41,560 nt of DNA from an uncultured Bacteroidaceae bacterium (lineage in GTDB: Bacteria; Bacteroidota; Bacteroidia; Bacteroidales; Bacteroidaceae): positions 1-41,560 of the forward strand of contig CAJONZ010000089.1 of assembly GCA_905236065.1 (NCBI GenBank). Reading direction: 5' to 3'. This document shows, in pieces, positions 7,942 to 25,082 of the stretch (the first letter of the stretch is position 1; every line of letters begins with the position of its first letter). The position numbers and the translations under genes are program-made. The notes under the pieces are model-generated. The model saw only the letters and a list, made by a program, of their open reading frames with translations, searched no databases and was not told the DNA's origin.

Positions 7942-7985
7942 CAGTTTTCTCACACACCGCACAATTTTTTCCCACGCCGCAGTGT

Positions 7986-8079
7986 AAAAGTTTATTCTCG
8001 GCGGGAATATTAAATATGGCATCGATATATTTAATATTCCCGCCGAGAATATTTTATATGTCGTCGAGAATAAACTTTT
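7986..8079. repeat. Nested perfect inverted repeats after xylE
   Basis: A perfect 24-bp inverted repeat pairs 7994-8017 with 8027-8050 across a 9-nt loop. A second, overlapping 15-bp perfect inverted repeat pairs 7986-8000 with 8065-8079. The left arm is shared, so the two pairings exclude each other. There is only a weak T-tract after the inner stem. The arms contain repeated ATTCTCG-CG blocks spaced about 21 bp apart, close to the 22-bp period of the array that follows. It sits 45 bp after the xylE stop and may act as a 3'-end or terminator structure. Confidence 0.8.
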
Positions 8080-8080
8080 C

Positions 8081-8234
8081 GAGTGAAGCGTCCAGACATT
8101 CGGAGCGAACCGTCCAAAGATTCGGAGCGAACCGTCCAAAGATTCGGAACGAACCATTTGGAGATTTGGAGTGAAGTGCCAGGAGATTCGGAACGAAGCG
8201 TTCGGAAATTTGGAGTGAAGTGTCAGGAGATTGG
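8081..8234. repeat. Seven tandem 22-bp units at a convergent gene junction
   Basis: Seven consecutive units of exactly 22 bp start at 8081, 8103, 8125, 8147, 8169, 8191 and 8213; units 2 and 3 are identical. The conserved part, spanning unit boundaries, is about ATTYGGARYGAA; the middle of each unit varies. A degenerate eighth unit may follow. Because 22 is not a multiple of 3, the translation shifts frame in each unit, so this is not a protein repeat. It lies between xylE (plus) and the minus-strand RNA candidate/HTCS gene. Function is unknown. Confidence 0.85.
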
Positions 8235-8365
8235 GTGTGAAGCCTTGCCATTCCTGCTATTCGGGGATATACGCTGCATTTGTACCCTCGGTGTCGGAGA
8301 GGGGACTGCGTTGCGGTCTTACTAAATATTTGCTGGGGGCTTATGAGTGGGATTTTGGGGAATAT

Positions 8366-8409
8366 ATAAAAAAGCAAGAAGGCGTGTCATCATCGACAGG
8401 CCTTCTTGC
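8366..8409 (-). terminator. Strong intrinsic terminator, minus strand
   Basis: GCAAGAAGGC (8374-8383) pairs perfectly with GCCTTCTTGC (8400-8409). An inner TGTC/GACA stem extends the hairpin. The A-tract at 8368-8373 gives a run of six T on the minus strand. It ends either a read-through transcript of the HTCS gene or the separate small RNA candidate starting near 8570. Confidence 0.85.
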
Positions 8410-8570
8410 CGTTGGTTAAACAAATCAACCTAACTAACCTATTAACCTTAACCTAATTTTACTAACTTTTAATTTGCTAACCTTTTTGAAAAGTCAATCG
8501 GGGAATCCCCCTGATTGCGGATTTTCATTTATAAACCTATATTATTAACCAATTTTCTTCCTTTTGTTTG
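8366..8570 (-). ncRNA. Candidate structured small RNA, about 205 nt
   Basis: On the minus strand a TAACTTTG -7 box (8577-8584) predicts a transcript starting near 8570. TTGGTTAA near its start (plus strand 8545-8552) is complementary to TTAACCAA near its end (8412-8419), closing an internal domain. That domain contains a second hairpin (8495-8517; CAATC/GATTG plus GGGG/CCCC stems). The transcript would end at the strong terminator at 8366-8409. A 19-codon ATG frame (MKIRNQGDSP...) begins near 8526 but has no clear support. Alternatives are the 3' untranslated region of the HTCS gene, or a relic leader of a lost gene. No match to a known RNA family is recognised by eye. Confidence 0.42.
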
Positions 8571-8576
8571 ACACTG

Positions 8577-8584
8577 CAAAGTTA
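8577..8584 (-). promoter_or_regulatory. Candidate -7 box for the small RNA
   Basis: Plus-strand CAAAGTTA is TAACTTTG on the minus strand, followed by GCAG as in the boxes upstream of the GH27 and secreted-protein genes. A clear -33 element is not seen. From here to the HTCS stop (8585-8768) the sequence is AT-rich and I see no gene or terminator. Confidence 0.45.
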
Positions 8585-8768
8585 CGGACTTTCTTTCGGG
8601 GGCAGTTTTTCATACGTTACATTTTTTTAATAGGGTGTTGTAATGTTGAAAAAAGTTTCGTTTTTTGCTTTTTTCGTCTCTTATAATAAGAAAAATGGTT
8701 GTAGTTTTGTTGCTCCAGCTTTCAATTTTGTAACATTTGTATCAATGAGTGGCTTTTAATTCATGGAT

Positions 8769-11700
8769 TTACAGCTGGTTGCCCTCCGATTGCATATTCT
8801 GATACTCGCTGGGAGTCATTCCGTAGAGCGATTTGAAGCTGGTTGAGAAGGTACTGAGGGTCTTGAAACCCGTTGCGTCGCTGACGCTGGTGATGTCCAA
8901 GTTCTTCTCTCGCAGCAGTCGTGCGGCCTCCTTCAGGCGGATGGTCTTGAGGAAATCGCGGGGCGACTGGCCGGTGAGTTCCTTAATCTTGCGATAGAAG
9001 TGTACGCGGCTCACGCCCACCATGTCGGCAAAGGTTTCGACGCTGAGGTCGGAATTGTCCATATTCTGGTTGATTACCTTCATAACTCGTTCCATCAGGT
9101 GCTCGTCGGGCGAGGTAAGCGCCAGCTTCTCAATCTTTTCCTCCGTCTTCTGCTCGGTGGTGAATTTGCCCTGCAGCATCAGTCGGTTGTTGAGCAAGTT
9201 GAGGGCCGTCGTGTGGAGCACTTCGATGTTGAACGGTTTCGTGATGTAGGCGTCGGCACCGCCCGTGAGTCCGTCGATGCGGTCGGCGTCGCTGCCGAGG
9301 GCCGTGATGAGGATGACGGGCAGGTGGTTGGTCAGCGGGTTGTTCTTGATTTTCTGACAGAGCGTCAGGCCGTCCATCGTCGGCATCATGCGGTCGCTGA
9401 TGACGAGGTTGATTTTCTTCGGATTCTTCTGGATGTAGTTCCAGGCTTCCTCGCCGTTGCTGCATTCGGTAACCACCATGTCGGCGGAAAGCTCACTGTG
9501 GAGGTATTGCCGTATGTTGGTGTCGTCCTCCACGACGAGGACGTTGCGATGCTTGAGTCCGCGTGGCTTCTCAATCGGCAGGACGGGGTCTTCGATGGGG
9601 GAGGGGTCAGAGGTGAGGGGTGAAGAGGCTGTTTCCTCGGCACTCTTTGCTTCCTCTGCCGGCTGGGGAAGGGGAGCCGGCTCTGGGGCTTCTCCCTCCA
9701 GGCGTGGCAGGACGATGGTGAACATGGTGCCCCGGCCTGTGGGGTTGTCCTGCACGGTGATGGTGCCCTTCATGAGCTGGACAAGCAGGTAGGTGAGGTT
9801 CAGGCCGATGCCCGTGCCGATGTAGCCGTTCTGCATGTTGGAAGAGTAGAACCGCTCGAAGATTCTGGGCTTCTCGGTGCTGGGGATGCCAGGGCCCGTG
9901 TCGATGACGCGGAGGGTGAACTGTTCGGCCTCTGTCTCCAGGCTGACCGTGATGTTGCCGCCGTCGGGGGTGAACTTGAAGGCGTTGCTGAGCAGGTTCA
10001 TCATGATTTTGTCGAAGTTCTCGGTGTCTATCTTGATGAACAGCTCGTCCACGTCGTGCTGGAATTGCAGGTTGATGTTGCGTTGGGCCGTAGCCGAGGA
10101 GAAACCGTCGCAGACGCTCTGGATGAACGAAATCAGGTCGGCGGTGGTGTAGTCCAGGCGGTACTGTCCCTTCTCAATCTTTCGGACATCCATCATCTGG
10201 CTGACCAGACGGATGATGCGCTTGGCGTTCTGCTTGATGATACGGTAGTTGCGCTGGTGGACGTCATCCTTGTCCATGCCCATCAGTTTCTCCAACGGTG
10301 CGATGATGAGCGTCATTGGGGTGCGGATTTCGTGGCTGATGTTCATGAAGAACTGGATGCGGGCCTCGTTGATTTCCTGTTCCCGTTGGTGTTCCCGCAT
10401 GAGCTTGCGGGCGATGACCTGACGCCGGATGAGCGTGAAGATGCCCCAACAGGCCAATGCAATCAGAAGGAGGTAGATGAAGATGGCCAACGGTGAGGTG
10501 TACCATGGGTGGTGGATGGTGATAGTGAGGATGCGCTCCTGGGAGACGGCCTGGTAGGTGTGGGCACGGATGTGCAGATGGTAGAGCCCGGGGGCGAGTC
10601 CCTGGATGATGATGCGCCCGGTGTTGCCTTCCTGCGTCGTCCACTTCTTGCCGTCGAAGCTGTATTCGTAGGTGATGTGGCGGTTGTTGACGCTGGGCGC
10701 GGCAATTTCTATGGAGAAGTGGTTGTCGGTGTAGGCCAGGTGTACCATCTTGGTCTCATTGACATGGGCATCCAGGATGTCGTGCGAGCCGGACTTGTCG
10801 CCCTTGTTGACGGCACGGTTGTTGATGTAGAGTCCTGCGAGGAAGATGTTGAAGGTGTTGGCGGATTTAAGTCTTGAGACGCCTTCCTCGTGGAAATAGG
10901 TGATGCCTCCGATGCCACCGAAATAAAGGTTCTTGCCGAGGGTGGTCGAGGTTCGCTGTCCGAACTCGTTGTCTTGCAGTCCATCTTCGTTGTAGAACGA
11001 CTCAAACTGCTCGGTCTGTGTGTTGAGGCAGCAGAGGCCGTTGTCGGTGCCGAGCCAAAGGTTCTGGCCCTGAATTTCGATGCTGTTGACCACGGGGTTG
11101 GGCAGTCCTTCGGTCTCGGTATAGCTTTTGACCGCCGAAGTCTTTGTGTTGAGGTAGTGCAGGCCCTCGGTCGTTCCAATCCACAGGTTTCCCTGCTTGT
11201 CAGGCTTGATACAGAGAACGTTGCGGCGGGTGAGGAGCAGGGCTTTCGGGATGAGGCGTTTCTCCTTCCTCTGATAGACTTCCAGTCCGTTGGCCGTTCC
11301 TACATAGATGGTCGTCTCGCATGGTTCGATGCAGAACACAAAGCGGTTGGGATCGGTGACGGGGGCAGATGTCTGAAGGCTTTCACTGTAATTGATGTAG
11401 TGGGTGAGTTCGTCGCGCTGTGGGTCATATTGGTAGAAGCCCATGCCCAGCGTCGAAATCCAGAGGTTGCCGGCGGCATCTTGTGCGAGGTGGAACACGC
11501 GGTTGATGTTGTATTTTGAACGTGTGAAGGTGCCCGTCTGGGTGTTCATGGACCAGAGTCCGTCGGCGTATCCGCCCATCCAGAGGGTGCCCCGGTGGTC
11601 GTCGAGCAGGGTGTTGACGGTGGAGGGCATGTTGGGCTGTCCCTCCGGCTTCCAATGGTAGCTGGAGGTGCCGTCAGCCGGGAGTTTGTAGATGCCGTCG

Positions 11701-12821
11701 TGGTCGGTGGCCACCCACAGCTTGTCGCCATCCGCAGGGGCAATGGCGGTGACGGGGTTGGTGCCGATGCTGTTCTTGGTGATGGAGTTGCGGCCAATGT
11801 ATTCAAAGGCCGACTGGTTGATGGGCTTCATCATGACACCGCGCCAGTAGATGCCCACCCAGACGTTGCCGTAGGCATCGCTCAGGGCGTCTTTCACGTT
11901 GGCGTTTGCCAGGTTGAAGTCGTTGGTGCGGATGTTGCTTTGGGCGATTTTCCCAGTACGTTCGTCATAGACTTTCAGACCGTTGCCGTCGGTGCAGATG
12001 AAGATGCGGCCATCGGTCCACTCGCGGATGCTCCAGAGGTTGTAATCGACGGGGTCGTCGTTGACGGGAAGGAATGTGTCGGCCTGTTTTGAATAGACCA
12101 GCAGGCCGTTCCGCTCACAGCCCAGATAGAGCTTGCCGGAGGTGCTGAGGTAGAGCGCGACGGGGCGTCCGGGTACATCTATCTTCTTGAAGCCTTTTCC
12201 TTCTTTCCGATAGACTCCCCCTTCACTGTTCAGAATCCAGAGGCGTTTCTCCCTGTCCTCCACGATGCGGGCCGGACTGATGTTGCCTTCGCCGGTGGCG
12301 TAGATGGTTTCCTGGTAGGCCACCATGTTGCCCTGCTTGTCTTGTTCGATGCGTCCACTGCCATGGCCCGCCACGCAGGCCACCACCTTGCCGGAGCTGA
12401 GTTGCCCCATCCAGGCAATGTGGATGCCAATGGTGTCTCCCTCGGAGGTAATAAATGGTACGTCGGTGAATCGGTCTGTGGCATAGTCGTAGGACAGCAG
12501 GCCGTTGTTGGTGCCGATGAGGATGTGGGAGGGGTCGTACTCATAGACGCAGAGCACGGAGTTGTACTTCAGGCCCTTGGGGTCGGTCTCGCTGTGTCGG
12601 TAGATGTTCATCTTCACACCGTCGTAACGGTTCAGTCCGTTCCGGGTGCCAATCCAGATGTTGTGTCGGCTGTCCTCATACAGGGTCTGTATGCAACTGT
12701 TTACCAGTCCCTGCTTCGAGGTGAAAAAAGTGATGTTCTGTGCCTGTAGGTTGGCGATGCCTGTCCAGGAAAGGAGCAACAGGCAAAGGATTCTTATCGT
12801 GAGAAAACGACGTGGTTCCAT
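8769..12821 (-). CDS. Hybrid two-component system regulator (HTCS)
   Basis: 1350 residues joining sensor kinase and DNA-binding regulator in one chain. Order: signal peptide (1-27); two seven-bladed Reg_prop propellers with repeated NIWIGT/LWLGT-type motifs (about 30-690) as the periplasmic sensor; Y_Y_Y domain (about 695-765); one transmembrane helix (about 772-795); HisKA with HEIRTP (His830); HATPase with MMNLLSNAFKFTPDGG and DTGPGIP; a Pro/Glu/Ala-rich linker (about 1040-1088); receiver domain with phospho-acceptor Asp1143 in SDRMMP; AraC-type HTH (about 1245-1340). HTCS proteins sense oligosaccharides and activate their own utilisation locus. With xylan genes on both sides the likely ligand is a xylo-oligosaccharide, as for XynR-type regulators (inference). 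Its -7 box follows the terminator of the upstream gene. Confidence 0.95.
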   Translation of the reverse strand: MEPRRFLTIRILCLLLLSWTGIANLQAQNITFFTSKQGLVNSCIQTLYEDSRHNIWIGTRNGLNRYDGVKMNIYRHSETDPKGLKYNSVLCVYEYDPSHILIGTNNGLLSYDYATDRFTDVPFITSEGDTIGIHIAWMGQLSSGKVVACVAGHGSGRIEQDKQGNMVAYQETIYATGEGNISPARIVEDREKRLWILNSEGGVYRKEGKGFKKIDVPGRPVALYLSTSGKLYLGCERNGLLVYSKQADTFLPVNDDPVDYNLWSIREWTDGRIFICTDGNGLKVYDERTGKIAQSNIRTNDFNLANANVKDALSDAYGNVWVGIYWRGVMMKPINQSAFEYIGRNSITKNSIGTNPVTAIAPADGDKLWVATDHDGIYKLPADGTSSYHWKPEGQPNMPSTVNTLLDDHRGTLWMGGYADGLWSMNTQTGTFTRSKYNINRVFHLAQDAAGNLWISTLGMGFYQYDPQRDELTHYINYSESLQTSAPVTDPNRFVFCIEPCETTIYVGTANGLEVYQRKEKRLIPKALLLTRRNVLCIKPDKQGNLWIGTTEGLHYLNTKTSAVKSYTETEGLPNPVVNSIEIQGQNLWLGTDNGLCCLNTQTEQFESFYNEDGLQDNEFGQRTSTTLGKNLYFGGIGGITYFHEEGVSRLKSANTFNIFLAGLYINNRAVNKGDKSGSHDILDAHVNETKMVHLAYTDNHFSIEIAAPSVNNRHITYEYSFDGKKWTTQEGNTGRIIIQGLAPGLYHLHIRAHTYQAVSQERILTITIHHPWYTSPLAIFIYLLLIALACWGIFTLIRRQVIARKLMREHQREQEINEARIQFFMNISHEIRTPMTLIIAPLEKLMGMDKDDVHQRNYRIIKQNAKRIIRLVSQMMDVRKIEKGQYRLDYTTADLISFIQSVCDGFSSATAQRNINLQFQHDVDELFIKIDTENFDKIMMNLLSNAFKFTPDGGNITVSLETEAEQFTLRVIDTGPGIPSTEKPRIFERFYSSNMQNGYIGTGIGLNLTYLLVQLMKGTITVQDNPTGRGTMFTIVLPRLEGEAPEPAPLPQPAEEAKSAEETASSPLTSDPSPIEDPVLPIEKPRGLKHRNVLVVEDDTNIRQYLHSELSADMVVTECSNGEEAWNYIQKNPKKINLVISDRMMPTMDGLTLCQKIKNNPLTNHLPVILITALGSDADRIDGLTGGADAYITKPFNIEVLHTTALNLLNNRLMLQGKFTTEQKTEEKIEKLALTSPDEHLMERVMKVINQNMDNSDLSVETFADMVGVSRVHFYRKIKELTGQSPRDFLKTIRLKEAARLLREKNLDITSVSDATGFKTLSTFSTSFKSLYGMTPSEYQNMQSEGNQL

Positions 12822-12855
12822 GTCTATAGGTTAAGGTTTTGAAACAACTCGGCGA

Positions 12856-12863
12856 CAAAGGTA
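12856..12863 (-). promoter_or_regulatory. Candidate -7 box for the HTCS gene
   Basis: Minus-strand TACCTTTG matches TAnnTTTG, about 35 nt before the ATG at 12821. It lies immediately after the upstream terminator, consistent with independent transcription of the regulator. No clear -33 element; that position falls inside the terminator stem. Confidence 0.5.
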
Positions 12864-12864
12864 C

Positions 12865-12903
12865 AAAAAAATGGTGTAAAGCGAACACTTTACACCATTT
12901 TTT
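12865..12903 (-). terminator. Intrinsic terminator after the large secreted protein gene
   Basis: ATGGTGTAAAG (12871-12881) pairs with CTTTACACCAT (12888-12898) across a 6-nt loop. Flanking A and T runs extend the stem to about 16 bp and give a T-tract in either direction. It begins about 35 bp after the stop of the minus-strand gene and separates it from the HTCS gene. Confidence 0.85.
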
Positions 12904-12937
12904 ATTTTTCATGCGGAGTTTTTACTCCGATGCGTAT

Positions 12938-15900
12938 TTACTTCACAACGACTTTCTCTACGTTACCGTTAGCATAGACAACGATGTTGACACCCTTCTG
13001 GAGCTTGTTGATGCTTGCACCGGCGGCGTTGTAGATAGCCTTAACCTCAGCCTTGCCGGCAGCAGCAGTCTCTGTGATGGCATCAGCCACGTTTGAATAG
13101 TTGTAACCTTCGAGTGGAGCAACGAAGTAGAGACGAGCGTCATCAGCGAAGGTGTTGGTATCCCAGTTGTCACGTGCCTCGCCACCCTTGGTAGCCTTGC
13201 CGGAAGTGTAGTGCTCAACGATACCGATAGTCAGCTTCTGGCCTTCTCCTACGCTAACGTTCTTAATAACTGTTGGGTGAGTGCCCCAGCCACCGATTGC
13301 GAATGGAACCATGATTGGGTCTTCGTCGTCAACCTGAGCATAGATGTACTTGTCCCAAATGCCAGTCTCGTCGTTCTTGGCGTTGTATGGCTCGAAGATG
13401 TTCTCACCGTATGTGCCGGAAGCGGTACGAGTGCCGAAGTAAACATCATATACACCTACGGGAGCGTTCTCGATAACTTGGTAGAACTCGTACTCTGCAC
13501 CACCGCCGTATGCATTGATCATGACGTCGCTAACAGGCTTGGCATCGGTAGCTGCGTCGCCAGAGAAGTGGACACTTCCATTTTCAAGCTGTGTGCAGTT
13601 CCAGCCTACGATGGTGTTGTCGGCCAGGTTGGCACTAGCGTTTGTTCCGTAAGTATAGAAGTGTGGGTTCTTGACAAGGCAAGTGAAATCAACGCCCTGT
13701 GAAGCAACTTGGTCTGAGCTTGTGTCAACATACTCGTCGTCAACTACAATCTTAGAACCGTCGAACATGGCGGTAGTCATCAAATCCTCTGTGAACTCGC
13801 CGTTAGCAATCTTCTGGTAGAGAGCAATCTTGGAAGCCTCGTTGCAGGCAGCGATAGCCTCGTCGTCGTCAGTTGCGATTTCGAGCATTGCGTCAACAGC
13901 CGCACCTTCAGCCTGGAGAGTGCTTGCAGTCTGGAATGCCTTGTAAGCACGCCAAGTGAGTACGTCAACCACGCTCTTCACGTTCTTCATCTTCTCAGAA
14001 GCTGTTACCAGTGCAGGAGCAACAGATGCGAGCTCCTCGTCAGACAGTGCGGAAGGATCGGTCTCACCGTAAGTGTCAATCATATTCTTGGCATCCTGAG
14101 CAATCTCAGAGTTCAGGTACTTGCCTTCGAGTGTGTTGTAAACCTCGGTAGCCTCAAGAATGGCGATAGAGAAGTTGTCGATGTTCTCTACACGTGCAGC
14201 CATTGCCTTACCCAGTGTGCTGAGTTCAGAGATGAGAGCCTCGATTTCAGATGGAGCTGTGAAGTGGCCAGTCTTTGCGTTGTTGATAGCAGCCTGGAAT
14301 GCAGTCTTGGTATCACCGTTGTACTCATCCATTGCTGCAGTTTCCATAACACCTTCTGCGATTTCTACAGCCTCGGCCAGCTTCTGCTTCCAGAATGCAG
14401 CCTTGGAAGGCATCGTGATGAGGTCAACACCACCAAGCAGGTACTCACCGTTAGGCTGAGTGGTCGAGAACTTCAGCATGTAGTAACCAGCCTTGTCAAC
14501 CATGAAGTCGGTCTGTGAACGGGTCACGTTGGTTACAGCTGTGTTCTGTGCGCCGTTTACGTTCGGCATAGCCACAACGTCGTCGAAGCGGGCATATACG
14601 TTGCCTGAAAGGTCTTCAAGTGTGAAGGTATATACAGGAGCGTTGTCTGGGCTGACAGCGTCTGTGTTGCCGTTCAGGTTCTTCCAAGCACACATACGGA
14701 TGGTAATCTGGTGCTTGCGTGCGTCGAGCCACAGAGAGATACCCTCTGGCATTTCTGGGTCGATTTCGCCGCCTTCCAGGATGTAGTCCTTCACCTGCTC
14801 ACCGAAGGTCAGGGTACCGAGCTGGTTGGCACCGTTCATTGAACGCCAGTAGATAGCTGCGCCGTTGAGGTCGCCACTGTAGCCAGTCATGGCACGGCAG
14901 CCACCACCACCAACGTTGCCACCCCAGTTGTAGTTCCATACGGCACCGGCATCGGTCGTTCCATACTGGTGGATGGTACCATTGTCGTTAGCAAGCCAAC
15001 CTACAGGGAATGTACCGTTTTCAGTCACGGCAAAAGTCTCGTTTGTGCTGTAGATAACCTCAGACTTAGAGTCGTCGGTGTCAGCGCCAATGGCGAAGGT
15101 GATAGACTGGTCGCCTTCGGCAGGAATATCCATCTTGTTGGCAATGCCAGAGAGGATGAGGGTGTATTCACCGTCAGCAAGGCCGCTGATAGCGATGTTC
15201 ACGCTCTTGCCGTCCTCGCTCAGGGTCATGGCATCGGTCAGGTCGGTCTCAACACCATTCTTAGTCAATGTGGCAGAAGCATAGTTCAGAGAAAGCTCCT
15301 TGTCGTAGGTTACACAAACGTTGTTGAAGGTAGCACCGTCAATCTCGAAGCTCTCGTTCTCAGGAACTGAGCTGACCATCTTAGGTGCAGACCAAGAAGA
15401 TGGCAGAGCGTCGATGCCTTCCGTGTAGTAGGCAGTCTCGTTCTCAAAGCCCAGCACGGCCATGTCGCCTTCTACGTCAGAGCTTGGACGACGGTCAGTG
15501 TCATAGACGATGGGGCAGTCGGCACCCGGAGTGAAGCTAACCTTCACGTCCTCAGCCTCAGCCAATTCGCCCTCATACAAGAAGATGTAGAGGAAACCGT
15601 CGTTCTTGCCTTCAACGAACTCAGCTGGCTTCTCAACGCCGTCAACAACCACCTTCACGCAAGAGGGGTCGAGCGACAGGTTACCCTCGTTGGCAGCAGC
15701 GAGCTTGCCAATGTTGGTTGGGTAGCCGAAGTCGAGCTTGATAACGTCGAAACCTGGGTCGAACAGAGCCTGGTTGAATGTAACGCCCTCTTCCACCTTG
15801 ATGTCGTCCAGGGTGTAAGTCGTGGGGCTATACATATTAATAATAAGGAAGAACTCGTTCGGCAGTTTGTGGTCGTAGTACTCAGCGTAAGTCTGAGTGC

Positions 15901-16507
15901 CGTCGCCGCCGAAGCTCTCTGGATAGACAGCGTTGCCCACCCAGCTCTGGTTTGCGATGATGTTGTTCAGTGTCTCAGCGTTGGTGTAATAAGACAAGAA
16001 TGAGATGTACTGCCACTCGCCTGTCATACCACTGGTCATCTGCACACCGTAGTTGGCGCCAGAAGGAGAGTTGATGCTCTTGTCGAAGTTCTCAATACCC
16101 TGAGAGAGCCAAGAAGTCAGACACGTGTTCTTTGTGCCTTCGTCGTTCGAGTAGGTGGGGTCAGCCTTTACCCAGAAGCTCACACGGTAGGGTGTGTTCT
16201 CCTTGATGTCGAGACCGGCAATCTTGAAACCACGGTCCCAAGTCTGTCCGGTCGTTGAGCCGTTGACAGCCTGGAAAGCATATTCGCCCGACTTCACGTC
16301 GTCGGCAAACTGCTCGTTCCATACGTCGCCGTCCTTCACGTTCACCCAGTCACCATAGGTGCTCAGTCCGGGTGTCAGCGAGTAAGCTGAACTCTTACCT
16401 GTTGCGTCGCCCTGTTCAAAACCGAGCGATACAATTGTAGTCTGTGCCTGTGCAGACATTGTGGCTGCGAAAAGGCCAAGACCCATCAAAAGGTTTAGTT
16501 TTTTCAT
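12938..16507 (-). CDS. Large secreted protein with T9SS-like C-terminal tail, function unknown
   Basis: 1189 residues from ATG at 16507; an in-frame TTG two codons upstream is less likely because MKKLNLLMGLG starts a clean signal peptide ending at AQAQ. The N-terminal 230 residues look like a jelly-roll carbohydrate-binding fold ending in YTLDDIKVEEG. Ig-like beta domains follow. Residues about 725-935 are an Ala/Glu-rich helical stretch resembling FIVAR-type spacers, then a second beta-sandwich. The tail (IYNAAG, LQKGVNIVVYANG, KVVVK) resembles a type A type IX secretion sorting domain, implying surface display or release. The protein is acidic and Asn-rich, and no glycosidase active-site motif was recognised. 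Its codons look less GC-rich than the neighbouring enzymes, which may reflect high expression or a different origin. A role in xylan binding is inferred from position only. Confidence 0.8.
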   Translation of the reverse strand: MKKLNLLMGLGLFAATMSAQAQTTIVSLGFEQGDATGKSSAYSLTPGLSTYGDWVNVKDGDVWNEQFADDVKSGEYAFQAVNGSTTGQTWDRGFKIAGLDIKENTPYRVSFWVKADPTYSNDEGTKNTCLTSWLSQGIENFDKSINSPSGANYGVQMTSGMTGEWQYISFLSYYTNAETLNNIIANQSWVGNAVYPESFGGDGTQTYAEYYDHKLPNEFFLIINMYSPTTYTLDDIKVEEGVTFNQALFDPGFDVIKLDFGYPTNIGKLAAANEGNLSLDPSCVKVVVDGVEKPAEFVEGKNDGFLYIFLYEGELAEAEDVKVSFTPGADCPIVYDTDRRPSSDVEGDMAVLGFENETAYYTEGIDALPSSWSAPKMVSSVPENESFEIDGATFNNVCVTYDKELSLNYASATLTKNGVETDLTDAMTLSEDGKSVNIAISGLADGEYTLILSGIANKMDIPAEGDQSITFAIGADTDDSKSEVIYSTNETFAVTENGTFPVGWLANDNGTIHQYGTTDAGAVWNYNWGGNVGGGGCRAMTGYSGDLNGAAIYWRSMNGANQLGTLTFGEQVKDYILEGGEIDPEMPEGISLWLDARKHQITIRMCAWKNLNGNTDAVSPDNAPVYTFTLEDLSGNVYARFDDVVAMPNVNGAQNTAVTNVTRSQTDFMVDKAGYYMLKFSTTQPNGEYLLGGVDLITMPSKAAFWKQKLAEAVEIAEGVMETAAMDEYNGDTKTAFQAAINNAKTGHFTAPSEIEALISELSTLGKAMAARVENIDNFSIAILEATEVYNTLEGKYLNSEIAQDAKNMIDTYGETDPSALSDEELASVAPALVTASEKMKNVKSVVDVLTWRAYKAFQTASTLQAEGAAVDAMLEIATDDDEAIAACNEASKIALYQKIANGEFTEDLMTTAMFDGSKIVVDDEYVDTSSDQVASQGVDFTCLVKNPHFYTYGTNASANLADNTIVGWNCTQLENGSVHFSGDAATDAKPVSDVMINAYGGGAEYEFYQVIENAPVGVYDVYFGTRTASGTYGENIFEPYNAKNDETGIWDKYIYAQVDDEDPIMVPFAIGGWGTHPTVIKNVSVGEGQKLTIGIVEHYTSGKATKGGEARDNWDTNTFADDARLYFVAPLEGYNYSNVADAITETAAAGKAEVKAIYNAAGASINKLQKGVNIVVYANGNVEKVVVK

Positions 16508-16559
16508 AAGCAAAAAAAATTAGTTAAACAATAATGTGAAAAACAATGAATTTTCGCTG

Positions 16560-16567
16560 CAAAATTA
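16560..16567 (-). promoter_or_regulatory. Candidate -7 box for the large secreted protein gene
   Basis: Minus-strand TAATTTTG followed by GCAGCG, about 53 nt before the ATG at 16507, leaving an AT-rich untranslated leader of about 45 nt. Further upstream, CATGTTACATG (16596-16606) is a small palindrome that could be a regulator site, but this is unsupported. Confidence 0.5.
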
Positions 16568-16640
16568 CCGCCTTTCCGCTCTTTCTTTTTCGTTTCATGT
16601 TACATGTGTTTTATGAAATGTTGCAAAATCTAAATAAAAA

Positions 16641-16729
16641 GAGAAAAGTAAAGAGTGAAAAATCCTAAAGTGTTGCTCGCGGAGTCCTTGTCCTGCGGTA
16701 ACGTGGATTTTTCACTCTTTACTTTTCTC
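16641..16729 (-). terminator. 25-bp perfect inverted repeat acting as terminator after the GH27 gene
   Basis: Arms 16641-16665 and 16705-16729 are perfectly complementary over 25 bp with a 39-nt loop. On the minus strand the hairpin is followed by TTTTTATTTA, fitting an intrinsic terminator 20 nt after the stop codon. The GAAAAGTAAAGAGTGAAAAA-type arms resemble purine-rich interspersed repeats I recall from Bacteroidales genomes, so it may be a repeat element reused as a terminator. No target-site duplication is evident. Confidence 0.7.
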
Positions 16730-16748
16730 GGTTTCTGCTTGTCGGCTT

Positions 16749-19289
<2,541 letters not shown>

Positions 19290-19306
19290 TCAAAACTTAT
19301 TTGCTG

Positions 19307-19314
19307 CAAAGTTA
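19307..19314 (-). promoter_or_regulatory. Candidate -7 box for the GH27-CE6 gene
   Basis: Minus-strand TAACTTTG followed by GCAGC, about 42 nt before the ATG at 19265. It faces away from the TAATTTTG box of the divergent GH115 gene. The two share a 227-bp intergenic region where a common HTCS operator could lie. Confidence 0.55.
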
Positions 19315-19465
19315 ATGCTTTTTAATATTATATAGGTGTTGAACCTTAACCAAAACTTTCCCGCATGTTTCATCTTTGCCCCCGTCGGGTGCTTTGCTTG
19401 CATTTTTGTAACACGCCGCTAAAATATATATATAATGTGCAAAACCCCCTTTGGCCGAAAACCGC

Positions 19466-19473
19466 TAATTTTG
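19466..19473 (+). promoter_or_regulatory. Candidate -7 box for the GH115/GH30-GH43 operon
   Basis: TAATTTTG followed by TCGC, 20 nt before the ATG at 19493, giving a very short leader. TTTG at 19450-19453 is too close to serve as a normal -33 element. Confidence 0.5.
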
Positions 19474-19492
19474 TCGCAAAAATATCTGTTTT

Positions 19493-21910
19493 ATGAAAAA
19501 GTATCTTTTTTTTCTCTTTCTCTTGGGCAGCCTTTCCCTGTGGGCGGCTGACGATTTTCTGTTCTTTTCCCGTCCTTCCACTCCTGCCTTGCAGCTGACG
19601 GGCACCTCCGCCACCGTGCAGTTCGACGCCGCCGACTATCGTGGCGTGGCCCTTGCCGTGCAGAACCTCCAGGCCGACCTTCAGGCCGTGACGGGCTCCT
19701 CCACGGCCCCCATTGTCGTGGGTACGTGGGGCAAAAGTTCCCTCATCGACAAGAAGGCGTATGCCAAAGAGCTGAAAGGCCGCAACGAGAAATTCATCAT
19801 CGACGTACAGGCCGACCGCATCGTCGTGGCCGGCAGCGACAAGCGCGGCACCATCTACGGCATCTACGAGCTTTCCCGCCAGTTGGGTGTCTCGCCCTGG
19901 TACTGGTGGGCCGACGTGCCCGTGCAGAAACACACCGAGGTCTATGCCCGTCCCGGTCAATACACCGACGGCGAGCCTGCCGTGAAGTACCGTGGCATCT
20001 TCCTCAACGACGAATGGCCCTGCATGGGCAACTGGGCGCACGATACGTTCGGCGGCTTCAATCATAAGATGTACGAGAAAGTCTTTGAACTCATCCTCCG
20101 TCTCAAGGGCAACTTCATGTGGCCGGCCATGTGGTCAGCCGCCTTCTATGCCGACGACCCCGAGAACCTGCGCACCGCCGACGACATGGGCATCATCATG
20201 GGCACCAGCCACCACGAGCCCTGCGCCAAGGCCCACCAGGAGTGGACCCGTGTACGCACTCGCGGCCCCTGGAACTACGACACCAACCGCGACGAGTTGG
20301 TCAGCTTCTGGCGTTCGGGCATCGAGCGCATGAAGGACACCGAGGACGTCATCACCATCGGTATGCGCGGCAACGGCGATGAGCCGATGGCCGACAAGCC
20401 CGACGTGGCCCTCATGGAGCGCATCGTGGCCCATCAGCGCCGCCTCATCACCGAGGCCACGGGCAAGAAGGCCAAGGACGTGCCGCAGGTCTGGGCCCTC
20501 TACAAGGAGGTGCAGCAATACTATGAGATGGGCATGAAGGTGCCCGACGACGTCATCCTCCTGCTCTGTGACGACAACTGGGGCAACGTCCGCATCGTGC
20601 CCGACACCAAAACCGCCCAGCCGCAAGGCAGCAAGACCGTCCAGCCGAAAAAGCGTCACCCCGGCGGCTACGGCATGTACTACCACGTCGATTACGTGGG
20701 AGCGCCCCGCAACAGCAAGTGGCTCAACGTGAGCCAGATTCAGCGACTCTGGGAGCAACTTGACCTCACTTATCGCTCTGGCATCGACAAGCTGTGGATT
20801 CTGAACGTCGGCGACCTGAAGCCCATGGAGTTCCCCATCGACTTCTGGTTCAAGGAGGCGTGGAATCCCACCCAGTTCACGGCTGAGAACCTGATGGCCT
20901 ACACCGAGGACTTCTGCCGCCAGCAGTTTGGCGACCAGCAGGCCAAGGAGGCCGCCCGCATCCTCAACCTGCAATGCAAGTATGCCCACCGTCGCACCCC
21001 GGAGCAGATGGCTCGCAACACCTATAATATTAATAATGGGGAGTGGGCCGAGCGCCTGGCCGAGTACAAGACGCTGGAGGCCGACGCCTTGGCTCAGTAT
21101 GCCACCCTGCCCGCTGAGTACCGCGACGCCTACAACGAACTCATCCTCTTCCCCATCCGGGGCATTGCCAACTTCTACGAAATGTACTACGCACAGGCCA
21201 AGAACGAGCAGTTGGCCATCTTGGGCGACCCTGCCGCCAACGACTGGGCCGACCTCGTGGCACGTTGCTTCGTGAAGGACTCCTTGTTGCGCAACGACTA
21301 CAACAAGAACATTGCCGGCGGCAAGTGGAACCACATGATGGACGAGATTTGCATCGGCTACATCTCTTGGAACAATCCGCGCCGCAACGTCATGCCTGCC
21401 GTCAAGCGCGTCGATACGCAGCGCCCCGTCATCGCCGAGCACAACGGTCGTGTCATCCTCGATGCCGACTGCTACAGCGAGAAGACCGATGCCGCCAACG
21501 CCCGTTGGACGGTCATCCCCCATTTCGGCATCTATCGCAACGCCATTGCCCTGATGCCCTATAGCGAGAAGACCGACGGCGGCAGCCTCACCTACCGGTT
21601 TATGACCACCAAGAAGGCGGCCACCCTCACCTTCCATTTCGCCCCGAACTTCCCCTTCAACGATGTGCAGCAGGGTATGCGCCTGAGCTACACCCTTGAT
21701 GGCGGCGCTCCTGAGACGATGAGCACCAACGGCGCTTCCGTCATCCGCTTCAACAACGCCACGGGCGACCAGCAGTTCGACTGGGCCAAGGAGCGCATCA
21801 ACCGCCGCAAGGTGCGGGTTGCCCTCGACGATACGTCCGACGGCGTCCACACACTGACGCTCACCCCGCTCGACCCCGGTATTGTCATTGAACGAATCAC
21901 GATAGAATAA
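19493..21910 (+). CDS. GH115 alpha-glucuronidase, third paralogue
   Basis: 805 residues, signal peptide about 1-19 (ending SLWAAD). It resembles the second GH115 more than the first: KYRGIFLNDEWPCMGNW, LKGNFMWPAMW, MGTSHHEP (His240-His241), VPDDVILLLCDDNWGN, LNVGDLKPMEFP. A short Gln/Lys-rich insertion (TAQPQGSKTVQPKK, about residue 380) interrupts the segment after DDNWG; it is a solvent-exposed loop insertion by inference. Expected role: removal of (4-O-methyl)glucuronic acid from xylan. The next gene, a GH30-GH43 fusion, starts 5 bp after the stop, so both are surely co-transcribed and probably act together on glucuronoarabinoxylan, GH30 often requiring the glucuronate branch. The codons are the most GC-rich of the three GH115 genes by eye. 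Confidence 0.93.
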   Translation: MKKYLFFLFLLGSLSLWAADDFLFFSRPSTPALQLTGTSATVQFDAADYRGVALAVQNLQADLQAVTGSSTAPIVVGTWGKSSLIDKKAYAKELKGRNEKFIIDVQADRIVVAGSDKRGTIYGIYELSRQLGVSPWYWWADVPVQKHTEVYARPGQYTDGEPAVKYRGIFLNDEWPCMGNWAHDTFGGFNHKMYEKVFELILRLKGNFMWPAMWSAAFYADDPENLRTADDMGIIMGTSHHEPCAKAHQEWTRVRTRGPWNYDTNRDELVSFWRSGIERMKDTEDVITIGMRGNGDEPMADKPDVALMERIVAHQRRLITEATGKKAKDVPQVWALYKEVQQYYEMGMKVPDDVILLLCDDNWGNVRIVPDTKTAQPQGSKTVQPKKRHPGGYGMYYHVDYVGAPRNSKWLNVSQIQRLWEQLDLTYRSGIDKLWILNVGDLKPMEFPIDFWFKEAWNPTQFTAENLMAYTEDFCRQQFGDQQAKEAARILNLQCKYAHRRTPEQMARNTYNINNGEWAERLAEYKTLEADALAQYATLPAEYRDAYNELILFPIRGIANFYEMYYAQAKNEQLAILGDPAANDWADLVARCFVKDSLLRNDYNKNIAGGKWNHMMDEICIGYISWNNPRRNVMPAVKRVDTQRPVIAEHNGRVILDADCYSEKTDAANARWTVIPHFGIYRNAIALMPYSEKTDGGSLTYRFMTTKKAATLTFHFAPNFPFNDVQQGMRLSYTLDGGAPETMSTNGASVIRFNNATGDQQFDWAKERINRRKVRVALDDTSDGVHTLTLTPLDPGIVIERITIE

Positions 21911-21915
21911 CCATT

Positions 21916-24900
21916 ATGAAGAAAACCTTATCAATCCTTGCACTGGCAGCACTTTCCCTGTCTGCCGCTGCACAGCGGTCGGCGTCTGCCAACATCGTCC
22001 GCTCCACCAAATACCAGTACATTGATGGCTTCGGCGGTACTGGCATGAACGGCCAATGGGCCGATGTCTATACCCAGGAGAAAGCCCGCAAGCTCTGGGG
22101 CATGGGCGACGACGCCGTCGGCCTGAACATCATGCGTGTCCGCATCAACCCCAACGAAGGCAACTGGGGCGAGTATGGCAACACCATCAAGTGGGCCCGC
22201 GCCGTCAATCCCAACCTCAGCGTCTTTGCCACGCCCTGGACACCGCCCAAGAAGTACAAGACGAGCAAGACCTACAACTACCAGAACGAGTTCGGCACCT
22301 GGGTGTGGCCCATCGTGGAACACAGCTGGGGCGGAGAAGGCTCCAACGGCGGTACCATCAACGATGAAAAGATTCCCGAATATGCCGACTTCCTCGAACG
22401 CTACCGTGCCACGATGGAGTCGAAGGGTTGCCCCATCGACATCATCTCCATCCAGAACGAGTGCGACTACACCCCCACGACGACCGACAACGGCGTGGAA
22501 CATGCCAGCTACGAGAGCTGCATCTATTCGCCCAAGCAGATGGCGGCCATGGTGAAGGCTGCCCGTGCGGCGGTCGATCCCAAGTGCAAGATTATGGGCC
22601 CCGAGACCTTCGGCTGGGGACAGGCCAACTACAACAATACCCTTGTCAACATCAAGGATGCCGTCGATAACATCGACATTTGGGGCAACCACCTCTATGG
22701 CTCCAACGACTTCACCTTTATCAGTCAGGTCACCAGCAAGACGAAGAAGCACATGTGGATGACGGAGATACTCTACGACTATGGCGAAGTGGCCAACTAC
22801 GGCGGCGAGTTTTCTGCCGAGTACCGTGTCGTCGAGAGCTTGGAGAACGCCTTGCAGAACGGCTATAACGGCTACGTCTATTACGACATGCTCAATGACT
22901 TCTTCTCCGTGGCTCACGGCGGCAGCGACACCGAACTGTGGAAACGTGCCTACGTCTTCAGCCATTATGCCAAGTACGTCACCGGCAAGACCCGCGTCCG
23001 CTCCAGTCTGCTCGGCACCTACGCCTCCGACCTGAGGGGCGGTTCGGCCTACGTGAGCGAGGGTGGCGACACCATCACCTTCAACGTGCTCAACCCCACC
23101 TCCTACACTTATACGCTGACCATCAACGTCCCCATCAACCCCACGAAGGTCACCGCCATCGTGACGAACGACGCCGTCAACGCCAAGAAGGTCAACCTGA
23201 CCAGCCAATATACCGACGGCAGCAAGAAGTTCAAGGCCACCCTCCAGCCCGGCACGTTCTACACGCTGGTCTTCGAGAAGGTTCACACGCCCGAGGGCGA
23301 GACACCGCAGGCCGACCTGGCCGTCAGCCCCAAGCAGCCCAACTACGGCAACCCCATCAGCCCCTATCAGTTCTGTGCCGACCCTACGGCCATTGAGTAC
23401 GACGGTCGTCTCTATGTCTATGCCACGAACGATCAGCAGGAGTTCGACCTTTCCAACGGCCTGAAGGCCAACAGCTTCGGCAAAATCAACCAGCTCGTCT
23501 GCATGTCAACCGCCGACATGGTGAACTGGACCCACCACGGAGTCATCGACGTGAAGGCCATCGCCCCTTGGGTTTCCGCTTCGTGGGCACCCAGCATCAT
23601 CAGTCGTGAGGAGGCCGACGGCCAGACCCACTTCTACCTCTATTTCACCAACTCCGCCTCCGGCATCGGTGTGCTGACGGCCACTTCGCCGACCGGCCCT
23701 TGGACCGACCCGTTGGGCCATGCGCTCATCGACCGCAACACCGCCGGACTGGGTACGATTTCCCAAATCATCGACCCCGGAGCCGCCATCAAGCCCGATG
23801 GTTCTGAGGCTTACCTCACCTTCGGCGGCGGCGACGTGAAGGGGACAGACTTGCAGCCTGGCAACGCCCGCATCGTGAAGTTAGGCCGCGACCTGATTTC
23901 GCTCGACGGGGCCATCAAGTCCATCTCGGCTCCCTGCCATTTCGAGGCCAACGAACTGAACTACGTCGGCAACAAGTGGATTTTCAGCTACTGCACCCGC
24001 TGGTCGATTGCCTCCAACTGGAGTTCTTACAGCTCGGCCAATGCGCCCACGCCTGCCTCCATCGTCTATATGACTGCCTCCGACCCGATGGCCGACAACT
24101 GGGGCTACAAGGGCGAGTTGCTGCCCAACCCCGGACGCATCGGCTTCCCCTACGGCACCAACCACAGCCGCCTGCAAAAGTTCGGCCCGTCCTACTTCCT
24201 CCTCTACCACACGCAGTGGCTGGAGAATCAGTTAGGCTACAGTGGTGGCTATCGCAGTCTGCACATCAACAAAATCACGGTGACGGAGAAAACGGCTCGT
24301 GTCGCTCCACTCTCGGCCACGACGGCCACCCTTACGGGCGTTCCCCAGCTGACTGCCGGTCGCCTGAATGCCTACCAGCCCCTGCTGTCAACCACCTTGG
24401 CCAATGCGGCGGGCGTTCATGTCCTCGCTACCGACACGCCGGGCACGACTGCCCTTGGCGACATCTACAGCGGCAGTTGGGCCATGATGCGCGGCGTTCA
24501 GTTTACAAATGCCGACGCGCCGGAGGGTGCCAAGAGCGTGGCGGTCAACCTGCAAGGCAAGGGTACGCTCGAAGTGCGTTTGGGTGCTCTCGATGCCGCT
24601 CCGCTGGTCACCCTTCCGTTCGATGCCGCCAACGACACCACCCTGCGGGTCAACCTCTCCGAGGCCGTCGGCTCCTTCCAGAACTATCTCTACTTTGTCT
24701 TCACTGAGGCCAAGGATGTGAAGTTCTACGGCTATCAGTTCTCCACGGAGACGGTGCCGACCGATGAGCCGTTGCCTGGCGACACGGACGGCGACGGCCA
24801 ACTCACGCTTGCGGACTTCCGCCTGCTGCTCAATCAGTACCTCAGTTCGTCGGCTTCGGCCCTCGATGTCGATGGAAACGGCAAGCTGACGCTCTGCGAC

Positions 24901-24951
24901 CTCACGAAGTGGCTGGAGCTGTACCGCCAGTCACAGGCCACTGCCCAGTAA
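21916..24951 (+). CDS. GH30-GH43 fusion with C-terminal dockerin-like EF-hand pair
   Basis: 1011 residues, signal peptide about 1-19. GH30 (about 25-450): YIDGFGGTGMNGQW, FATPWTPP, acid/base Glu182 in IQNECDY, nucleophile Glu284 in MTEILYD, and the family's side beta-domain. GH43 (about 475-785): base Asp489 in FCADPTAIEYDG, Asp620 in IIDPGAAI, acid Glu677 in FEANEL, on a five-bladed propeller. Then a CBM6-like beta-sandwich (about 790-945) and two calcium-loop motifs, DTDGDGQLTLADF and DVDGNGKLTLCDL (about 955-1005). GH30 cuts the xylan backbone; GH43 would remove arabinofuranose or xylose. The EF-hand pair resembles type I dockerins, but no cohesin is visible in the window. It follows the GH115 gene by 5 bp. 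GH43 subfamily and exact activity cannot be assigned by eye. Confidence 0.92.
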   Translation: MKKTLSILALAALSLSAAAQRSASANIVRSTKYQYIDGFGGTGMNGQWADVYTQEKARKLWGMGDDAVGLNIMRVRINPNEGNWGEYGNTIKWARAVNPNLSVFATPWTPPKKYKTSKTYNYQNEFGTWVWPIVEHSWGGEGSNGGTINDEKIPEYADFLERYRATMESKGCPIDIISIQNECDYTPTTTDNGVEHASYESCIYSPKQMAAMVKAARAAVDPKCKIMGPETFGWGQANYNNTLVNIKDAVDNIDIWGNHLYGSNDFTFISQVTSKTKKHMWMTEILYDYGEVANYGGEFSAEYRVVESLENALQNGYNGYVYYDMLNDFFSVAHGGSDTELWKRAYVFSHYAKYVTGKTRVRSSLLGTYASDLRGGSAYVSEGGDTITFNVLNPTSYTYTLTINVPINPTKVTAIVTNDAVNAKKVNLTSQYTDGSKKFKATLQPGTFYTLVFEKVHTPEGETPQADLAVSPKQPNYGNPISPYQFCADPTAIEYDGRLYVYATNDQQEFDLSNGLKANSFGKINQLVCMSTADMVNWTHHGVIDVKAIAPWVSASWAPSIISREEADGQTHFYLYFTNSASGIGVLTATSPTGPWTDPLGHALIDRNTAGLGTISQIIDPGAAIKPDGSEAYLTFGGGDVKGTDLQPGNARIVKLGRDLISLDGAIKSISAPCHFEANELNYVGNKWIFSYCTRWSIASNWSSYSSANAPTPASIVYMTASDPMADNWGYKGELLPNPGRIGFPYGTNHSRLQKFGPSYFLLYHTQWLENQLGYSGGYRSLHINKITVTEKTARVAPLSATTATLTGVPQLTAGRLNAYQPLLSTTLANAAGVHVLATDTPGTTALGDIYSGSWAMMRGVQFTNADAPEGAKSVAVNLQGKGTLEVRLGALDAAPLVTLPFDAANDTTLRVNLSEAVGSFQNYLYFVFTEAKDVKFYGYQFSTETVPTDEPLPGDTDGDGQLTLADFRLLLNQYLSSSASALDVDGNGKLTLCDLTKWLELYRQSQATAQ

Positions 24952-24983
24952 ATTCGCCCTCAAACACTTATCGACCAAAAATG

Positions 24984-25017
24984 ACGCAGAACTGTATCAA
25001 TGAATACAGTTCTGCGT
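24984..25017. repeat. Perfect 14-bp inverted repeat between convergent genes
   Basis: ACGCAGAACTGTAT (24984-24997) pairs perfectly with ATACAGTTCTGCGT (25004-25017) across a 6-nt loop. It lies 32 bp after the GH30-GH43 stop and 65 bp beyond the giant gene's stop on the other strand. T-tracts are weak on both sides, so it may be a shared bidirectional 3'-end hairpin. Confidence 0.8.
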
Positions 25018-25073
25018 TACGTTTTGTAGAGTTCTGCGTCGTCTCCGATAGAGTTCTGCGTGATTTTTGAAAG
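25008..25073. repeat. Three tandem 22-bp units at a convergent gene junction
   Basis: AGTTCTGCGT occurs at 25008, 25030 and 25052, exactly 22 bp apart. Each copy is followed by 10 variable bases and AG. The first copy is also the right arm of the hairpin, and the inverted form ACGCAGAACT is at 24984. The architecture (hairpin plus 22-bp units, convergent 3' ends) matches the element at 7986-8234 although the sequence is unrelated. Confidence 0.85.
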
Positions 25074-25082
25074 TCTTCCGCC

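Follow-up and report, generated by a model that had tools for sequence, protein, structure and literature searches.

The window, meaning the whole stretch of 41,560 nucleotides analysed here, from an uncultured Bacteroidaceae bacterium, carries four genes on the forward strand followed by three on the reverse, two on the forward and two on the reverse strand, and thus has exactly two convergent junctions. This layout, like the placement of all elements described below, rests on the calls of a simple purpose-made gene caller. An earlier note on this DNA had labelled several of the genes; its GH43, HTCS and sugar-transporter labels were upheld, and the gene that it called 'GH30' matches GH115 instead.

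Repeat elements at the two convergent junctions

The earlier note had also claimed that a hairpin fused to an array of 22-bp period occurs at both convergent junctions and at no other. Within the window this proved correct, as the combination was present at none of the five other junctions tested. The best 44-base stretch of self-match at lag 22 scored 41 at the first convergent junction (J1) and 30 at the second (J2), values equalled by none of 1000 dinucleotide shuffles, and the five other testable junctions scored 20 or less (three very short junctions were left out). The element at J1 is a member of a dispersed intergenic family, F1, and that at J2 of another, F2. The features are the following (strand in brackets).

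7942-8768: J1, convergent intergenic region
7974-8091 (unstranded): F1 outer inverted flanks, arms 7974-8003 and 8062-8091, 80% inverted
7992-8073 (unstranded): F1 core, modules centred at 8001, 8022, 8043 and 8064, pitch 21 bp, from a module scan of 25 F1 copies and alignment
within 7992-8073: F1 module type, TATTCTCGNCGAGAATA / ATATCGNCGCCATAT
7993-8051 (unstranded): perfect hairpin of the J1 copy, 25-bp arms 7993-8017 and 8027-8051 with 9 nt between them
8072-8247 (forward): 22-bp array adjoining F1, with units such as GGAGCGAACCGTCCAAAGATTC
24952-25082: J2, convergent intergenic region
24974-25071 (forward): F2 element, model R1, 98 positions, 114.1 bits, also in alignment
24976-25069 (unstranded): F2 outer inverted ends, CAAAAATGACGCAGAACTGTATC / GATAGAGTTCTGCGTGATTTTTG, 91% inverted
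24984-24993 (reverse): inverted F2 unit, AGTTCTGCGT
25008-25061 (forward): three direct F2 units at 25008, 25030 and 25052, pitch 22 bp

The 22-bp period that had been ascribed to J1 thus holds for the flanking array; the pitch of the core is 21 bp. The source genome contains 25 copies of F1, in which 71 of 76 successive module centres lie 21 bp apart. Among them, the J1 copy alone has so long a perfect hairpin; in the other 24 the perfect arms measure 8-21 bp. Outer flanks similar to those at J1 were aligned beside other F1 copies. The outer positions d5-d8 of the F1 modules are symmetric beyond chance, a symmetry that a stem could equally produce. The sequence of the units varies along the array 8072-8247, which gave no match besides itself below E 0.1 in its own genome; an analogous flanking array lies on contig C65, at position 6915.

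The F2 family occupies at least 91 places in the source genome, as counted by model search and merged by hand. At J2 its hairpin is perfect over 14 bp and reaches 81% over 27 bp. Alignment showed that the F2 unit is not palindromic and that 20 copies align gapless or nearly so, and outside the core further units decay in phase. These alignments bear on whether the arrays are neutral minisatellites produced by slippage, for which the variable array of the J1 copy, found in that copy only, might speak. For the element cores this reading is contradicted by the (near-)gapless F2 alignment, by a pitch that is exact in unrelated families and by conservation limited to the modules, and we give it very little credence.

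Plasmid iterons are short protein-binding repeats spaced about two turns apart, similar in size and pitch to the present units, and F2 combines inverted and direct sites at 22-bp pitch. The elements might therefore be iterons of the chromosome that serve to titrate plasmids or to keep them out. Unlike plasmid iterons, however, they are dispersed over a chromosome, in a genome without a match to Rep_3; 3 of 21 genomes have such a match, all below the family cut-off. Moreover, F2 found no match among 72,556 plasmid and 50,697 phage records, so that this origin must be regarded as highly improbable. The F1 matches in plasmid records (about 30 bases, E 0.08, in unrelated plasmids) were taken as chance, and neither the F2 nor the F5 pattern (see below) had an exact match in viral contigs. 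Among named genomes the F2 pattern matched three times: a Bacteroidaceae MAG obtained from horse faeces shows four units spaced 22 bp, and the two remaining matches were taken as chance.

Families of like build across the genus

Other species of the genus carry three unrelated families of like build, F3, F4 and F5, present in 8, 9 and 14 of 41 genomes, respectively. They consist of palindromes, typically three, spaced 23 or 24 bp; the modules are 13-17 bp as patterned and, judged by eye, of mixed rather than alternating orientation. When any spacing between 18 and 52 bp was allowed in 57 F3-F5 elements, successive strict modules were 23 or 46 bp apart in all 33 cases for F3 and F4, and 23, 24 or 48 bp apart in all 53 cases for F5. 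Each of the 14 best-match F5 loci keeps a single pitch (24 bp in 10, 23 bp in 4, the latter from four genomes), and since F5 has two pitches, the pitch is fixed per element and not family-wide. Of the five families, four have dyad-symmetric modules. The suggestion that the two arrays of the window represent a class with a common architecture and unrelated sequence was thus supported beyond the window, F1-F5 all being dispersed, intergenic and of fixed pitch.

The 22-bp periodicity also emerged when intergenic regions 90 bp or longer were scanned within 443 kb of the source genome: 14 of 131 reached at least 30 of 44 at lag 22, and every other lag from 12 to 40 was represented by at most two. 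Lags 22-24 together were found in 15/131 regions of the source genome, in 12/219 of six same-genus genomes and in 1/117 sampled regions of three genomes of the same order (G017, G018 and G023). A general 22-bp phasing of intergenic DNA was considered and rejected, as 109 element-free regions had no lag-22 signal; the masked flanks of 22 element-bearing regions do carry it.

Conservation was compared for F4 and F5 on one contig pair, from two species about 91% alike (G010 and G011). All 11 elements keep their place, and bases had changed at 13 of 513 positions in the palindromes, 22 of 180 in the spacers and 253 of 1859 in the flanks. Modules thus diverge less than flanks (p 2e-15), and spacers do not differ from flanks (p 0.73). 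Because the elements had been found by pattern, a null set at half the neutral rate is fairer, and it gives p 2e-5 for the modules. Seven of the 13 module changes fall on the central base. Moreover, the 11 elements contain no gap or inserted columns, against 21 gap columns in the flanks. Palindromes kept amid changed surroundings point, on the strength of sequence comparison, to an undescribed kind of candidate protein-binding site. For the genome with F1 and F2, the longest blocks matched in same-genus genomes are 75-78% alike.

The elements might instead be non-autonomous and mobile, MITE-like and akin to BrickBuilt, with the units as transposase-binding sites and the outer ends as terminal repeats. 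Spread in bursts would then account for lineage-specific families. In fact, F2 occupies 91 places here and was found in 0 of 25 relatives at E 1e-19, a strict threshold passed by just 28 copies of its own genome. Terminal inverted repeats are present, the ends of the window F2 copy being 91% inverted over 23 bp, and part of the F4 and F5 copies have, by eye, the outer ends CCTCAAAA...TTTTGAGG; across 90 F2 copies the inverted-end consensus fades in the outermost bases. The way in which units decay in phase outside the core fits mobility as well, as does an element seen in one species and not in the other at three compared sites (G011 versus G015, G014 versus G010 and G007 versus G015). However, 11 of 11 F4/F5 elements in place, with conserved modules and free spacers, are not what decaying copies would show. 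Furthermore, a transposase search, limited to the Y1 type, gave a single match in the source genome (contig C10, position 12640), and this sits amid a different repeat, TAACCGAGGG, with one F2 copy about 0.9 kb off (C10, 11632-11729). On balance we consider mobility unlikely, though a serious contender; should it apply, the elements would be a compact case of selfish repeats kept in place by their hosts.

Position relative to genes

The elements had been thought to belong to convergent junctions. The junction counts of F1-F5 rule out a convergent-only placement: among the placed copies, 62 of 82 in F2 and 17 of 22 in F1 occupy other junctions. The 82 F2 copies divide into 20 at convergent, 24 at divergent and 38 at tandem junctions. 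By intergenic length 10.1 convergent copies were expected, an enrichment of about twofold (p 0.002), and divergent junctions are enriched too (15.3 expected, p 0.02). Counted per junction for F1 and F2 together, convergent junctions differ from the rest with p 0.039 when the window is included; without it, 4/33 convergent against 16/240 other junctions carry an element (p 0.28). F3-F5 showed 11 of 44 convergent copies against 4.7 expected with orthologous copies counted (p 0.005); with orthologs dropped this became 8 of 37 against 3.9 (p 0.053; by junction p 0.13), which is not significant.

Closeness to the upstream stop codon is a steadier rule than convergence. Thirty of the 38 tandem F2 copies lie nearer to the upstream stop, at a median of 64.5 nt past it (p 9e-6), as do 18 of 21 tandem F3-F5 copies with orthologs dropped (median 65 nt); for F1 the count is 8 of 10 and not significant (p 0.11). 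Placement may in part reflect avoidance of promoters and operons.

RNA elements, either intrinsic terminators that work in both directions or hairpins that stabilise 3' ends, would also explain a position some tens of bases past stops, as well as A and T tracts at the outer ends and independence of orientation. Such A-tract and T-tract ends occur in F2 and in some of the F4 and F5 copies. Where F2 lies less than 50 nt from a gene end, 32 of 34 ends have no terminator-like site before it, though the gap hardly holds one; at 50-300 nt, by contrast, a terminator already precedes the element at 21 of 41 gene ends. Among element-free gene ends 43/138 have a terminator (shuffled, 1/138). A compact terminator lies inside the element for just 12 of 75 3' ends facing F2 and 4 of 17 facing F1; a compact stem with a T run is not a general feature of F1 and F2. 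At the main variable site in the arms of F2, pairing showed no covariation (55/90 against 54.2 expected), which weakens the view that what is chiefly conserved is an RNA hairpin; one F2-arm site shows weak covariation with the first of the direct units (70/90 against 63.5; p 0.025 in one among 18 tests). Conserved module letters and an exact pitch would be needless for a terminator, and an Rfam scan of 15 loci, 10 of them with F1 or F2 from the source genome, returned two tRNAs only at the gathering score. We therefore judge a role in RNA to be improbable.

Candidate binding sites and known repeat systems

The overall reading that we favour, at about even chances, is that the arrays are phased sites of a lineage-specific DNA-binding protein and serve as boundaries or roadblocks after genes. 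On its parts we differ in confidence: the modules are probably protein-binding sites, and the boundary function is put forward tentatively as a possibility. Each element consists of some three or four short modules, spaced at an exact pitch that ranges from 21 to 24 bp, about two helical turns. The module sequences differ between lineages, and lineage-specific protein dimers would occupy the modules side by side. Binding of this kind would account for a fixed spacing of centres whatever the direction of the modules, conserved modules and free spacers; F2, the units of which are not palindromic, fits a dimer less well. The hairpin would then arise secondarily, from sites that are palindromic or inverted. 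Mostly some tens of bases past the stop codon, the filled array could form a boundary at the 3' ends of genes that works in either orientation, whether by blocking read-through, as an insulator or by anchoring the nucleoid, with convergent junctions as one setting among several.

A counterpart of BIME elements had been proposed, and the likeness holds in form but not in convergent specificity. Two reports (PMC2817692, PMC3733652) describe REP/BIME as dispersed intergenic palindromic units of 20-40 bp, regularly spaced in differing orientation, often between unidirectional and convergent genes, and bound by protein in E. coli. F1-F5 share the dispersed and intergenic placement, whereas the present modules, about three or four at exact pitch, are 13-17 bp as patterned. 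This falls short of the 20-40 bp of a REP unit, and the F2 unit is not palindromic. Orientation alternates in BIMEs; F3-F5 combine exact spacing with an orientation that is mixed by eye, and the sequences of F1-F5 are mutually unrelated. A REP unit ends on one side in a GTAG or CGTC tag, and RAYT-linked REPs flank the RAYT gene; the single Y1 match here has another repeat around it and one F2 copy about 0.9 kb away.

BrickBuilt, a MITE of Porphyromonas gingivalis, is described (PMC4596501) as intergenic, with 19 copies, a 23-nt tandem unit, small inverted ends and predicted stem loops, and as comprising 1 to 22.8 direct repeats in 84-991 nt with a leader and a tail. The present elements resemble it in being intergenic and dispersed with a near-equal unit, inverted ends and predicted stem loops. 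They differ in that about three or four modules, mixed in orientation, occupy roughly 60-100 bp, and neither leader nor tail was noticed. A search of openly licensed literature with the module sequences of F2, F3 and F5 gave no related description, judged by title, and one for intergenic repeats of Bacteroidetes or Prevotella gave nothing matching these arrays.

If the preferred reading of phased protein-binding sites is right, the arrays are ready bait for an unknown DNA-binding protein, and the class would be a natural experiment in which a protein and dozens of its sites change together. Extended further, and as a speculation that we hold to be rather unlikely, the phased palindrome arrays after genes could constitute a genus-wide boundary system, cooperatively bound by a fast-changing DNA-binding protein, in which the letters are swapped wholesale between species and the build, pitch and gene-relative position are retained. 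A case in point for such wholesale replacement would be one and the same gene that is followed by F4 in genomes G002 and G035 and by F5 in G010 and G011.

Dispersed repeat families at the convergent junctions

The window has exactly two convergent junctions according to our own gene calls, at 7942-8768 (J1) and 24952-25082 (J2), and the earlier note had observed correctly that both carry a hairpin with a 22-bp array. The best self-match at lag 22 is 41/44 at J1 and 30/44 at J2, values matched by none of 1000 shuffles, and at most 20 in five other junctions of the window. Each of the two is one copy of a dispersed family. The family of J2 (F2, window copy at 24974-25071) was found at no fewer than 91 places in the 2.73-Mb draft genome, merged by hand from 150 listed matches, a number that is a lower bound because 150 of the 910 first-look candidates were scored. 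That of J1 (F1, window copy at 7969-8091) was found at 25 places, merged from 55 rows.

The layout of F2, as seen in 20 copies that align almost without gaps, is a single inverted unit followed by three direct units AGTTCTGCGT at a pitch (centre-to-centre spacing) of 22 bp. Outwards from the inverted unit the series goes on in register but weakens: the first inverted unit lies within two mismatches in 88 of 90 copies (one odd-length copy was dropped), the next in 18 and the one after that in 6. On the direct side a fourth unit is present in just one of the 90. F1 nearly always has four modules, and 71 of 76 neighbouring centres are 21 bp apart. In the 443-kb sample, which contains nine F1 copies, the flanking 22-bp array is strongest at J1 (41/44); the copy at C65:6915 has a resembling one (36/44), and the J1 array unit has no other match in the genome below E 0.1. 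Two further intergenic 22-bp arrays, unrelated in sequence, lie at C127:16146 and C87:21073 of the same genome.

Lag 22 stands out across the 443-kb sample. Of its 131 intergenic regions of 90 bp or more, 14 score 30/44 or better at lag 22, and no other lag from 12 to 40 has more than 2 that do. After masking of the elements the signal was absent from the 109 element-free regions and persisted in the flanks of the 22 element-bearing ones, and is therefore a property of the elements and not of intergenic DNA in general.

With respect to the genes of the window, the transporter, HTCS and GH43 labels were upheld, and the gene labelled GH30 proved to be a GH115 match. To judge from the HTCS gene and the literature, the organism probably belongs near Bacteroidales. 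The reading frame 16749-19265 contains a perfect 7-bp tandem (AATGAAG, 4.4 times, 18085-18115), a unit from which phase variation could arise. The giant frame at 25083-40133 encodes 5016 aa, the stop-proximal 905 of which have no Pfam match at 1e-5.

The same build in other species of the genus

No F2 match was found below E 1e-19 among 25 relatives, a threshold that only 28 of the copies in its own genome pass, so that weak relatives would escape the search. Samples from other species of the genus contained arrays with different letters. By pattern search, family F3 (TACCCNNNGGGTA) is present in 8, F4 (CGAYSTCGWCGASRTCG) in 9 and F5 (GGTSTGASTCASACC), among the matches listed, in 14 of 41 genomes of the genus; the genome of the window, one of the 41, has no match to any of the three. 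These searches gave up to 178 forward matches per genome and none in the backward control. Arrays at lags 22-24 were seen in 12 of 219 sampled regions of six same-genus genomes versus 1 of 117 in three genomes of the same order. The class of arrays proposed in the earlier note is real, and wider than was supposed.

Spacing was measured in 57 distinct F3-F5 elements, using strict modules and allowing 18-52 bp. In F3 and F4 the distance from one module to the next is 23 or 46 bp in 33 of 33 cases; in F5 it is 23 bp (7), 24 bp (45) or 48 bp (1; n=53). The pitch within F5 varies by lineage: each of the 14 best-match loci has a single spacing, which is 24 bp in ten genomes and 23 bp in four (G007, G029, G033 and G042). 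Three or four strict modules are present in 28 of the 57 elements and two in 29, where a decayed third is frequently discernible by eye. A locus in a Bacteroidaceae MAG from horse faeces (L173, 7628-7703) has AGTTCTGCGT four times at 22 bp, with other spacers in between.

Conservation was tested for F4 and F5 in one contig pair of two species (G010 C3 and G011 C21), a test not possible for F1 and F2. The two genomes share long blocks of 88-95% identity, and all 11 elements of one species have a counterpart in the other. Differences amount to 13 of 513 bases in modules, 22 of 180 in spacers and 253 of 1859 in adjacent flanks. Detection by pattern favours intact modules, but the deficit in the modules holds even against half the neutral rate (p 2e-5). 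The spacers diverge like the flanks (p 0.73) at unchanged length; there are no gap or inserted columns inside the elements and 21 gap columns in the flanks. Conserved modules separated by flank-like spacers of constant length are what is expected of an array of protein sites at fixed pitch. Of the 13 changed module bases, seven are the central one of the palindrome. In F5 this base differs in 5 of 24 modules and all remaining positions together account for 3 differences, as if single palindromes had been inverted.

Downstream of one gene F4 is found in G002 and G035 and F5 in G010 and G011, a swap that is possibly due to chance since it is a single case in which only the upstream gene beside the element is common. 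Despite differing flanks, F3 persists in two comparisons, G014 with G002 and G029 with G014. At three compared sites an element is present in one species and none was seen in the other (G011 vs G015, G014 vs G010, G007 vs G015), which may represent gain or loss.

Placement relative to genes

Of the 91 F2 copies, 82 fall in tandem (38), divergent (24) or convergent (20) junctions and nine at stretch edges. On the basis of element-free intergenic length, convergent (10.1 expected, p 0.002) and divergent (15.3, p 0.02) placements are in excess and tandem placements are depleted (56.6). The 25 F1 copies (3 at edges, 10 tandem, 7 divergent, 5 convergent) show no significant convergent excess (2.7 expected, p 0.18). 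Counted per junction, with F1 and F2 pooled and the window left out, an element is present at 4 of the 33 convergent junctions, at 6 of the 30 divergent ones and at 10 of the 210 tandem ones; for convergent junctions versus the rest p is 0.28, and 0.039 when the window is included.

Of all 57 F3-F5 elements, orthologous copies included, 44 were assigned to a junction type (tandem 24, convergent 11, divergent 9), the others overlapping gene calls (7) or lying at edges (6). The 11 convergent placements compare with expectations of 4.7 from length (p 0.005) and 5.4 from junction counts (p 0.019). When each orthologous site is counted once, 48 elements remain, of which 37 were placed (21 tandem, 8 convergent, 8 divergent), and the convergent expectation becomes 3.9 from length (p 0.053) or 4.7 from junction counts (p 0.13). 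The link to convergent junctions drawn in the earlier note holds within the window and, weakly, by intergenic length, but fails as a rule for the genome, where it is at most a twofold bias.

In tandem junctions F2 is nearer to the upstream stop than to the next start in 30 of 38 cases (p 9e-6; medians 64.5 and 214.5 nt), F1 in 8 of 10 (p 0.11). F3-F5, with orthologs collapsed, resemble F2 (18 of 21, median 65 nt). The strand of F1 and F2 elements is roughly balanced.

Hairpin, proposed protein site and known systems

Between the arms of F2, no covariation is seen at the main variable base of the unit (55 of 90 versus 54.2 expected); it is weak at one other position (70 versus 63.5, p 0.025), and at two loop-side positions agreement is below chance. 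The perfect arms measure 6-34 bp in F2 and 8-25 bp in F1, whose longest are those of the window copy. The symmetry of the F1 module exceeds chance at d5-d8 and not at d3-d4, and a compact terminator was found at 12 of 75 F2-facing and 4 of 17 F1-facing gene ends. On these results the hairpin is read as a side effect of sites that are palindromic or inverted, although some copies may have a role as RNA. We think of the arrays as predicted in-phase protein sites near gene ends.

Nearest in form are the BIMEs (PMC2817692, PMC3733652), of which the earlier note proposed a Bacteroidetes counterpart, and the BrickBuilt MITE of P. gingivalis (PMC4596501). The present arrays differ from both in how large and how numerous the modules are, in their exact pitch and in the turnover of their sequences. 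No prior description of six F2, F3 and F5 module sequences was found in the literature searched, which consists of openly licensed papers.

The genome of the window also has a separate REP-like system, formed by a single match to a Y1 (RAYT-like) transposase at C10:12640-12987 (L109) and TAACCGAGGG repeats, including those at C10:11960, 12053 and 12472. There are 13 of these repeats in an 814-kb sample, none within gene calls. On C34, C115, C83, C62 and C72 they lie no more than a few hundred bases from F2 copies, some near contig ends, in a sample biased towards F2 neighbourhoods.
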